In this document: piece by piece, positions 54,080 to 57,868 of the stretch
How the letters are laid out: each line of letters starts with the position of its first letter
How positions within the stretch are numbered: position 1 is the stretch's first letter
Source of the DNA: Synechococcus sp. JA-2-3B'a(2-13)
Lineage (GTDB): Bacteria; Cyanobacteriota; Cyanobacteriia; Thermostichales; Thermostichaceae
NCBI RefSeq assembly: GCF_000013225.1
Contig: NC_007776.1
Location: 701,277 to 765,276, forward strand
DNA: 64,000 nucleotides
Reading direction: 5' to 3'
Notes under the pieces: generated by a model
What the model saw: the letters and a program-made list of their open reading frames with translations, nothing else
What the model was told of the DNA's origin: nothing
Databases searched by the model: none
Program-made: the position numbers and the translations under genes

Positions 54080-54412
54080 GACGATACAACTCCTTACACA
54101 GCTCTCACTGGGGAGAAGGCCCAGGAAGGTGCTGTTGAAGACGACAAGCAGCCCCTTAACTTGGGATCCCTCTCCTCCACTGTAGCCCTTCTGCCGGGCC
54201 TTCCGTTCCCTTGCGGCTCCCCCGGCAGACAGCGGGCCTGCCCTATCCCTAGAGGCTCTTAAAGATCTTCTCAGAGCACAACACTACCTACAACACCAGA
54301 CCCCCGAAGATTGTGATAACGTGGTTGGGCATTGGGTCGGCGGGGCCAACCAGCACTCAAAAGTTGGAACGACCGAGCTTTAGCAGGGGAGCTTTGCAGG
54401 AGGGGTGTGGCT
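54080..54412. promoter_or_regulatory. Divergent promoter region, M50 protease / nrdJ
   Basis: 333 bp separating diverging genes. It ends with GCAGGAGGGG, an excellent ribosome site for ATG 54413. No cobalamin riboswitch consensus was found. GGGATCCC occurs once. Confidence 0.4.
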
Positions 54413-57400
54413 ATGGTGTGGACTTCGTCCCACTCAGGCGAACAGAGCGAAGAAGTGCAGGGACTTGATCCCGCTGAAACGACGGGATCCCTGCCTCTGG
54501 GCGAGTTTCCGGCCACAGCCCCGGCGGCCAGCCCGGTGTTCTACCGCACCTACAGCCGTCGCCGCCCAGATGGCAGCCGCGAGACTTGGAGTGAGGTTTG
54601 CGATCGCACCTTGGCCGATATTGCCCGGTTGGGGCGCTTCACCCCTCAGGAGCGGCAGTTGGTAGAACGTCTGCAGCGGCAGTTGAAGGCGTTGATCTCC
54701 GGTCGAGCCTTGTGGGTGATGGGCACCGACTGGATCCAGAAGCCGGAAAACTTCTCCGGTGCCTACAACTGCACCAGTTTGGCGGTGGTGGACTGGCGGG
54801 CCTTTGGCCTGATGATGGATCTGGCCATGATGGGCTGCGGCACGGGAGCGGTGCTGGAACCCCAGTTCATCCGCCAGTTGCCCCCCATTGTCAACCGCCT
54901 GCGGGTTCACGTGAAGGGATCCATCGGCGCCACCCCTCCCGAAGAGCGGCAGGAACACACCCGCATCCACCGGCAGGGATCCCAGGTGCACATCCAGGTG
55001 GGGGACAGCCGCCGCGGCTGGGTGGAGTCCTACCAAGCGCTGCTGGAGCTGGCGTCGGATCCCAGCTTTGGGGGCCAAGTGGAAGTGACAGTGGACTTGA
55101 GCGATGTCCGCCCGGCTGGGGAGCGGCTGAAAGGGTTTGGGGGCGTGGCCAACCCCATTAAGCTGCCCGGCTTGTACGAGCGCTGTGCCGCCATCCTCAA
55201 CAGGGCAGTAGGGCGGCAGTTGAACTCCGTGGAATGCTGCCTGCTCATCGACGAGGCGGCGGTGGTGGTGGTGGCGGGAAACATTCGTCGTAGCGCTGGC
55301 ATTCGTCAGTTTGCTGCCGACGACCAGCTGGGATCCACCGCCAAAGACAACCTCTGGCAGCAGGACGAAAACGGCAACTGGAGAATTGATCCCGAGCGAG
55401 ATGCCCTGCGCATGGCCAACCACACGCGGGTGTTTCACCGCAAGCCGACGCGGGAAGAATGTGTTGAGGCCGTGCGGAAGCAGTTTTACTCCGGTGAGGG
55501 CGCCATCCAGTGGGCCGGGGAAGCCGTAGCACGGGCCAATTGCGACCTTATCCCACCCGACCTAAAACCCGACTTTCTCAAAGCCTATGAGGCAGGAACG
55601 GCCCGAGAATGGCTAAAGGGACGGGATCCCTCCCTAGGGGAAGAGGAGCTTCAGGATCGCCTGTGGCGCTATGGGCTGAATCCCTGCGTGACAGCCGATA
55701 CCTGGGTGCACACGGGCGATGGGCCGCGCCAGGTGAGAGACCTGATTGGGAAGCAGCACAGCACCTATGTCAATGGAGAACTATTCAGTACCACACCGGA
55801 GGGGTTCTTCTACTCCGGTACCAAGCCTGTGCTGAAGCTTTTGACCAAGGAAGGGTTCTCTCTGCGGCTGACAGGCAACCATCGGGTTCTCAAAGTCACC
55901 GCTCAAACCCAAAAGGCACAATACACCGAGTGGGTACCGGCAGAAAGCCTACAACCGGGCGACCGCATCCTGCTGCACAACCATCGCGATCTCACCTCGT
56001 GGGATGGGGCGGGTACCTGGGAAGAAGGCTGGCTTTTGGGGAATTTGCTGGGTGACGGTGGCCTTACGGCAACCCCGTGGAACGACACGGCTTTATTACG
56101 CTATTGGCAAGATACCCAAGCCGAAATGAGCCAGTATGCGATTCAGCTTTTGCAAACGGCAGTGGGTTACGAGCCCCGCCAGCCAGAGGCATATCACTAT
56201 GCGCAGCTTGGGTTGCGGGTTATCGGCTCCAGGGGGTTGGCAAAACTGGCGGCCCAGTTCGGCATGAGGCCCGGACAAAAGCAGATGACAGAGGCGCTCG
56301 AAGCCACCAGCTTCCAGTTTCATCGAGGCTTCTTGTGCGGGCTCTTTGATGCGGATGGCAGCGTGCAAGGTAATCAGGAGAAAGGGGTTAGCGTGCGGCT
56401 CTCTCAAAGCCATCTGGGTACCCTCAAAGCGGTTCAGCGCATGCTGGCGCGGCTGGGCATCATTGCAGTTTTGTATGAGAATCGCCGTCCTGCTGGATAT
56501 CGCCTGCTGCCGAACAGTGCTCGCCAACCTGCACCATACGCTTGCAAAGCCCAGCACGAATTGGTTATTGCCAACGACAACTTGCATCTGTTCCAGGAAT
56601 GGGTCGGCTTTCGGGAACCGCACAAAGCCCAAAAGCTAGAGGCACTGCTGAATGGCTACAAGCGCCAGCTCAACCGAGAGCGGTTTGCTGTGACGGTTGC
56701 TGCCCTTGAGGCAGACGGGGTAGAGCCGGTGTATGACTGTACTGTCCCCGGCCCAGCGTGCTTTGATGCCAATGGGTTTGTTGTCCACAACTGTGGCGAG
56801 ATTATTGGCCACACATTCCATTGCAACTTGGCCGAGATCCACCTCAACCGTTTGGATCCCCACAACCGGCAAGAGCAAGAGGAAGCCTTCACGGCGGGAG
56901 CCCTCACGGTGGCAGCCCTACTCCACCACCGCTTTGTGGAACCCCGCTTTCAGCGCTCGCGGGAATGGGATCCCATCGTCGGCGTCTCGTTCACAGGCCT
57001 GTTCGACTTTTGCGTCAAAGCCTTTGGGGTTGAATGGCTGCGCTGGTGGCAGGAAGGGAGACCCGATACCCCCATCGGGAAGGAATTCAAGCAGCAGGAG
57101 CGGGAATACCTCAGCCGCTGGAAGGAGATCGTCCACCGCGTGGTCTGGGACTACTGCGACCGCCACAGCCTGCGCCGCCCCAACCGCTGCACCACGGTTC
57201 AGCCCGCCGGCACCAAGTCGCTGCTCACCAACGCCTCTCCCGGCTGGCACCCGCCCAAAGCCCAACGCTACATCCGCCGCATCACCTTTGCCAAAAATGA
57301 CCCGGTGGCGCTGGCCTGTCTGGACTATGGCTACTCGGTGGTACCTGCTCAGGCGGACAAAGATGAAAACGGGAACTTGCTCAACGACCCCTTTGATCCC

Positions 57401-57868
57401 CGCTGTACCGAATGGCTGGTGGAACTGCCTGTGGAAGTAGAATGGGCCAACCTGCCCGGTGCTGGCCAGATCGAGATCGAGCAATTCTCGGCCCTGGCCC
57501 AGTTTGACTTCTATATGCAGGTTCAGAAGTACTACACCACCCACAACACCTCCGCCACCATCGAGCTGCGGGAGGACGAGGTGGAAGCTCTGGGATCCCG
57601 TATCTACGAAGCCATCCGCGACGACGAGGGCTACATCAGCGCAGCGCTGCTGGCCCGCTTCGATGCCCCCTTCCCCCGCCTGCCTTTTGAGAAAATCGAC
57701 AAGCCCACCTACGAACGACTGGTGGCCGAGGTCAAAAAGAGACGGCGGACAGATAACTTCTTCGCGGCCCTGGCCCGCTACGGCCGCAACTTTACCTTGG
57801 CAGCAGAGGGACCGGCAGGGTGTGACGCTCTGGGGTGTCTGTTGCCAGATTCGGCGCCTCAGAGCTAG
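54413..57868 (+). CDS. nrdJ: Adenosylcobalamin-dependent (class II) ribonucleotide reductase with intein
   Basis: Reduces ribonucleotides to deoxyribonucleotides using B12-generated thiyl radical chemistry; oxygen-independent. The 1151-aa precursor splices to 782 aa, the size of monomeric RTPR (about 740). Residues by analogy with the Lactobacillus enzyme: Cys in GAYNCTSLAV (residue 120) and the spliced NP-CGEIIG Cys (active thiyl site), plus C-terminal GCDALGC as the reducing CxxxxC pair. Start: ATG 54413 with AGGAGG. The first codons overlap a degenerate dispersed repeat. Intein details are in the next entry. Confidence 0.95.
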   Translation: MVWTSSHSGEQSEEVQGLDPAETTGSLPLGEFPATAPAASPVFYRTYSRRRPDGSRETWSEVCDRTLADIARLGRFTPQERQLVERLQRQLKALISGRALWVMGTDWIQKPENFSGAYNCTSLAVVDWRAFGLMMDLAMMGCGTGAVLEPQFIRQLPPIVNRLRVHVKGSIGATPPEERQEHTRIHRQGSQVHIQVGDSRRGWVESYQALLELASDPSFGGQVEVTVDLSDVRPAGERLKGFGGVANPIKLPGLYERCAAILNRAVGRQLNSVECCLLIDEAAVVVVAGNIRRSAGIRQFAADDQLGSTAKDNLWQQDENGNWRIDPERDALRMANHTRVFHRKPTREECVEAVRKQFYSGEGAIQWAGEAVARANCDLIPPDLKPDFLKAYEAGTAREWLKGRDPSLGEEELQDRLWRYGLNPCVTADTWVHTGDGPRQVRDLIGKQHSTYVNGELFSTTPEGFFYSGTKPVLKLLTKEGFSLRLTGNHRVLKVTAQTQKAQYTEWVPAESLQPGDRILLHNHRDLTSWDGAGTWEEGWLLGNLLGDGGLTATPWNDTALLRYWQDTQAEMSQYAIQLLQTAVGYEPRQPEAYHYAQLGLRVIGSRGLAKLAAQFGMRPGQKQMTEALEATSFQFHRGFLCGLFDADGSVQGNQEKGVSVRLSQSHLGTLKAVQRMLARLGIIAVLYENRRPAGYRLLPNSARQPAPYACKAQHELVIANDNLHLFQEWVGFREPHKAQKLEALLNGYKRQLNRERFAVTVAALEADGVEPVYDCTVPGPACFDANGFVVHNCGEIIGHTFHCNLAEIHLNRLDPHNRQEQEEAFTAGALTVAALLHHRFVEPRFQRSREWDPIVGVSFTGLFDFCVKAFGVEWLRWWQEGRPDTPIGKEFKQQEREYLSRWKEIVHRVVWDYCDRHSLRRPNRCTTVQPAGTKSLLTNASPGWHPPKAQRYIRRITFAKNDPVALACLDYGYSVVPAQADKDENGNLLNDPFDPRCTEWLVELPVEVEWANLPGAGQIEIEQFSALAQFDFYMQVQKYYTTHNTSATIELREDEVEALGSRIYEAIRDDEGYISAALLARFDAPFPRLPFEKIDKPTYERLVAEVKKRRRTDNFFAALARYGRNFTLAAEGPAGCDALGCLLPDSAPQS
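54416..54446 (+). repeat. Possible dispersed repeat at the nrdJ 5' end
   Basis: TGTGGACTTCGTCCCACTCA then GGCGAACAGAG: stem GGAC/GTCC with loop TTC and a 3' half close to the family. It overlaps codons 2-12 (VWTSSHSGEQS). Similar to about 20 of 25 positions; less certain than other copies. Confidence 0.45.
55685..56791 (+). other. LAGLIDADG intein (369 aa) in nrdJ
   Basis: Starts with Cys (NP|CVTADTWVHTGDG) and ends VVHN before Cys+1 (HN|CGEIIG). Splicing block B: FSLRLTGNHRVLKVTAQ with TxxH. Homing endonuclease blocks: WLLGNLLGDGGL and FLCGLFDADGSVQ, both catalytic acids present. Block F: VYDCTVPGPACFDANGFV. The sequence is therefore that of a full, probably active intein. The insertion point is exactly before the catalytic cysteine, a classical homing site. 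Confidence 0.95.

Follow-up and report, generated by a model that had tools for sequence, protein, structure and literature searches.

The analysed window (64,000 nucleotides, positions 701277-765276 of a complete genome of 3,046,682 bases) carries on its forward (+) strand, on which all window features given below lie, the nrdJ precursor (54332..57868 in the ORF listing), encoding a monomeric adenosylcobalamin-dependent (class II) ribonucleoside-triphosphate reductase (RTPR) that contains an intein. The start codon is uncertain, the first TTG standing at 54332 and an alternative ATG at 54413. The open reading frame scored 692.2 bits against the TIGR02505 RTPR equivalog model (cut-off 340), the joined exteins matched the L. 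leichmannii enzyme (1l1l_A) with E=1.1e-27, and the N-x-C-x-E motif of the family is present, as NPCGE, once the intein is removed. The intein itself (55685..56791), supported by its junctions, alignment, structural model and Pfam matches, is a stop-free insert of 1107 bp (369 codons) in frame with nrdJ; it is assigned to class 1, and a LAGLIDADG homing endonuclease is nested within it. Scans around the gene for sigma-70-type promoters and for terminators yielded no informative signal. Its first and last codons are TGC (Cys1; 55685-55687) and AAC (Asn369; 56789-56791), followed by TGT of the +1 Cys (56792-56794), and the flanking sequence reads ...WRYGLNP / CGEIIGHTFHCN..., where the slash, here and below, marks the insertion point. 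Thus, the limits proposed in an earlier reading of the sequence alone (hereafter the sequence-only reading), with a Cys at the start and His-Asn at the end, were exact to the codon.

In the alignment with 1l1l, GLNPCGEI of the joined flanks is paired with GTNPCGEI, which begins at chain residue 404, so that the +1 extein Cys (56792..56794) corresponds to residue 408 (Cys408 in L. leichmannii numbering), which is the established thiyl-radical cysteine. The insert therefore separates the Pro of NPCGE from its radical Cys, the NP/C site of reductase inteins, and, because it stands directly before the radical cysteine, this same cysteine is the +1 splicing residue. The sequence-only reading had rightly placed the intein at the radical site, but its wording, one residue before the cysteine, was off by one. 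Its proposal that removal of the intein restores NPCGE was borne out, since the alignment of the joined exteins runs on across NPCGEI, both against 1l1l and against the uninterrupted genes of congeners, giving back the host protein.

Searches of the complete genome detected a single RTPR locus, and neither the Ribonuc_red_lgC (PF02867) profile nor the NRDD profile gave a match in it. As no second reductase was detected, the spliced NrdJ is probably essential to the cell.

Anatomy, conservation and predicted structure

The conservation counts below refer to an alignment of 46 inteins of the same family. At the N-terminal end, block A (N1; CVTADTWVHTGDG; 55685..55723) begins with the splicing nucleophile Cys1, invariant in 46/46, and block B (N2; LRLTGNHRVLKVTA; 55862..55903) holds T63 and H66 of the TxxH motif, both likewise invariant (46/46). 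At the C-terminal end, block F (C2; GVEPVYDCTVPGPACF; 56717..56764) contains D351 (46/46), and block G (C1; ANGFVVHN; 56768..56791), which scored above the cut-off of TIGR01443 (intein_Cterm), ends with H368 and N369, again without exception among the 46 sequences. Together with the +1 Cys, these are the residues of a class 1 intein; a class 3 intein, which lacks Cys1, was ruled out by the presence of that residue. Nested between blocks B and F are two LAGLIDADG motifs, LLGNLLGDGGL (residues 117-127; 56033..56065) with the acid D124 and LCGLFDADGSV (residues 217-227; 56333..56365) with D224, and Asp is found at each of these two positions in 42 of the 46 sequences. Both motifs thus keep their acids, in agreement with the sequence-only reading. 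Two neighbouring residues are unusual among the relatives: G126 (56060-56062), two residues past D124, is Gly in the window sequence only (1/46), most relatives having Ser, Cys or Thr there, and C218, inside the second motif, is shared by only 2/46.

Profile searches with the intein alone gave LAGLIDADG_3 (PF14528) at E = 2e-20 over residues 212-308, which include the second motif, and the Intein_splicing Pfam model (PF14890) at E = 2.5e-9 and 37.6 bits (cut-off 35.8). With these Pfam matches, the RTPR scores and dozens of relatives at the same junction, the intein signal is far above chance. An AlphaFold model of the intein, built from a 30-sequence alignment, reached a pLDDT of 94.4 and a pTM of 0.92, and its best PDB matches were the full-length homing-endonuclease inteins TliVMA (7qsu; E=4e-17), PI-PfuI (1dq3) and PI-SceI, followed by the endonuclease I-DmoI. 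The confident model, the intein matches in the PDB and the PF14890 score jointly point to a predicted Hint splicing fold.

Distribution and horizontal movement

Of 59 sampled genomes of relatives, 17 have an intein of this family (about 50% identity or more) at this site. An occupancy count from a junction search was set aside, as some seemingly uninterrupted genes (frame of about 740 aa) match in two pieces, probably reflecting a variable loop just upstream. Dozens of genomes hold full-length relatives with 50-84% identity at an identical junction; the 35 loci from named genomes are nearly all cyanobacterial, the few exceptions being proteobacterial and archaeal, and wherever the junction is readable in family members it is NP/C. 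A search of viral contigs with an alignment as query yielded 43 related loci, most of them at the same site and some in the context YGLNP/CGEIIG, whereas a single protein query gave no match in these contigs, and searches of phage and plasmid records returned only distant matches (about 25-30% identity). The claim that inteins occur at this site in other reductases is accordingly upheld, by the same NP/C junction in cyanobacterial, proteobacterial, archaeal and viral-contig reductases. Two same-site inteins, L021 (273 residues) and L020 (313 residues), have shrunken endonucleases and represent natural steps towards a mini-intein, which shows that the family also includes further stages of the homing cycle.

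Within the genus, six genomes were compared: G000, G001 and G005 carry the intein at the window site, and in G002, G003 and G004 this site is empty. This partly answers the question, also raised in the sequence-only reading, of the state of the site in hot-spring populations. In G004, the congener nearest to the window genome, with an extein 96% identical to that of the window, the window site is empty and an unrelated intein sits 10 codons downstream, at FH/C. This second type of insert (locus L091) has about 338 residues, LAGLIDADG-like motifs and an atypical C-terminal Gln (GGTLTGQ/CNLAE). The nrdJ of G005 (L092) contains, besides the window-site intein, an extra one upstream, between NIRR and SAGMRQF, ending in YLTHN. 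In eight further loci (L011, L015, L020, L021, L031, L032, L035 and L047) the C-terminal flank runs into a second intein-like N-terminus (FHC/VAG or VSG), as it likewise does in viral loci L097, L098 and L106; these flanks suggest two inteins with a 10-residue piece of extein between them. Two inteins of the same family, at G006:C42:8555-9660 (L018) and G050:C184:5450-6546 (L019), were matched in two reading frames, which may reflect decay, sequencing error or splitting.

Comparison of intein and host-gene phylogenies revealed a conflict. The window intein is no further from those of two distant cyanobacteria, G031 (84% identity) and the metagenome-assembled genome (MAG) J069 (83%), than from that of the congener G001 (82%), whereas the corresponding extein identities are about 74%, 73% and 88%. 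Consistent with these values, in the intein tree the window and G001 are sisters and are joined by the pair G031 and J069, while in the extein tree G031 and J069 lie far from the window and G001. In AU tests, for which the clades were picked after the trees had been seen, the extein data rejected the intein clade {window, G001, G031, J069} (p=3e-61), and the intein data rejected the host-family clade (p=0.004). The conflicting trees indicate that the intein moved horizontally, and purely vertical inheritance was ruled out on this ground. Between the window and G001 the endonuclease part has accumulated no indels, and its dN/dS is about 0.11, a rough value because synonymous sites have come close to saturation (dS about 1.4). 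Judged from these sequence comparisons, the intein is horizontally mobile and patchy within the genus.

Proposed splicing and homing, and rival readings

Given the observed anatomy and conservation, the predicted fold, the recurrence at one site, the conflict between the trees and the lack of any other detected reductase, the best explanation is, with high probability, a class 1 intein that carries a LAGLIDADG homing endonuclease, splices out of NrdJ, homes and persists selfishly. Both the standard class 1 chemistry and an endonuclease active now or recently are what we infer as most likely. In such a scheme, a thioester would form between Cys1 and the upstream Pro, the upstream chain would be handed to the +1 Cys, that is, the future radical cysteine, and Asn369 would cyclise with the aid of His368, after which an S-to-N shift would leave a seamless NPCGE and an active reductase. 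Counting against this reading, a Pro at the -1 position makes the initial step of splicing slower in some inteins (among the papers searched, none on effects of Pro -1 in the Mth RIR1 intein was found), and the residues G126 and C218 within the LAGLIDADG motifs are rare. The endonuclease would cut intein-less nrdJ alleles around NP/CGE and spread the element through repair-copying, as the horizontal movement and the sequence constraint indirectly suggest. The intein would then persist selfishly, presumably because its site is highly conserved and any imprecise excision would inactivate the reductase.

A variant in which the intein still splices while its endonuclease is now inactive, so that inheritance is vertical only, is rather unlikely. 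Such a stage does exist, inasmuch as the same-site inteins L020 and L021 have lost much of the endonuclease, and the rare residues G126 and C218 would fit it. On the other hand, both catalytic acids are kept, the length equals that of the G001 intein, the dN/dS against G001 is low, the predicted fold is complete, and the element has moved horizontally in the past. At the far end of the scale, a non-splicing insertion with a broken nrdJ, or an assembly artefact, is so improbable as to be negligible. Nothing was found in its favour, the same insert stands at the same junction in many independent genomes, the reading frame is open and constrained, and a dead reductase would hardly be expected when the genome is complete and no second reductase was detected in it. 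An artefact of assembly and a pseudogene were both ruled out by this recurrence.

The sequence-only reading had also proposed that the splicing rate could set the dNTP supply. Such control is possible, as a hypothetical notion coherent with the single detected reductase. A true post-translational switch, in which the splicing rate, and with it the dNTP supply, is set by temperature, redox state or some other signal, is improbable, even though the radical cysteine of the enzyme doubles as the +1 nucleophile and no second reductase was detected. Effects of heat, oxidants or zinc on other inteins have been reported (PMC5790916, PMC6195587, PMC7360933). Against a switch, the site is empty in congeners G002 and G003, and in G004, with its nearly identical extein, it is empty while an unrelated intein occupies another site; control of dNTP supply by splicing is thus not needed in the genus, and horizontal spread explains the pattern with no benefit to the host. 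Slightly less probable still is the specific form in which splicing is gated by temperature or redox in the day/night cycle of the mat and acts as a dNTP valve, an idea arising from the double role of one cysteine, as splicing nucleophile and as radical site, in the only detected reductase. The mobile, selfishly persisting class 1 intein therefore stays our preferred reading.

Relation to known inteins

The intein of the window looks intact and is well supported as an ordinary mobile intein; as this insert is found in the same place in many cyanobacteria and phages, it illustrates well a phenomenon that is already known, and it may already be listed in InBase. Its closest counterparts are the same-site cyanobacterial nrdJ inteins (for example those of G001, G031, MAG J069 and Leptolyngbya species), which share the NP/CGE junction, 53-84% identity and the invariant splicing residues; they are mostly of the same length, although their sequences have diverged and the endonuclease is shrunken in L020 and L021. 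The proteobacterial, archaeal and viral-contig reductase inteins (L049-L056, L096-L134) are homologous (about 30-56% identity) and occupy the same position relative to the catalytic cysteine, but their hosts mostly belong to other reductase subclasses, and the proteobacterial and archaeal exteins are only about 25% identical. The intein of SPbeta bnrdE, in a phage reductase large subunit, matches the window intein over its full length, with, however, 25% identity and a class Ib host, in a comparison made by sequence match rather than by junction. TliVMA, PI-PfuI and PI-SceI share the architecture of a Hint splicing domain with a nested two-motif LAGLIDADG endonuclease, but are 12-16% identical and reside in other host proteins. 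The NrdJ-1 intein is split and without an endonuclease, and is by this description set apart from that of the window. It is a fast-splicing intein named for a class II reductase gene and has found biotechnological use (PMC7090010, PMC13123727).

It is well known that inteins occur at the active sites of essential proteins, with reductases among the hosts (PMC5874633, PMC3653736), and by 2009 the curated reductase inteins numbered about 80 (PMC2795772). Full-length (type II) inteins have already been reported in nrdJ of hot-spring Thermosynechococcus (PMC9403480), and they resemble the window intein in being large, in containing a homing endonuclease and in their patchy occurrence among strains of thermophilic cyanobacteria; they belong to a different genus, and the comparison with them is at the level of the gene.

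The six congeneric genomes, in which a single essential gene has its site occupied, vacant or replaced by an intein at another position, provide a clean natural case for studying intein persistence, alongside viral contigs with the same intein family. With the catalytic Cys serving as the +1 nucleophile and no other reductase detected, the locus also offers a test bed for distinguishing regulatory from purely selfish inteins. The same genome contains a second intein, a DnaB mini-intein without an endonuclease (L002:4-1803; approximately C1:1117.8-1118.2 kb), which reads CLAGDTQV...LLVHN/SIEQDADL.
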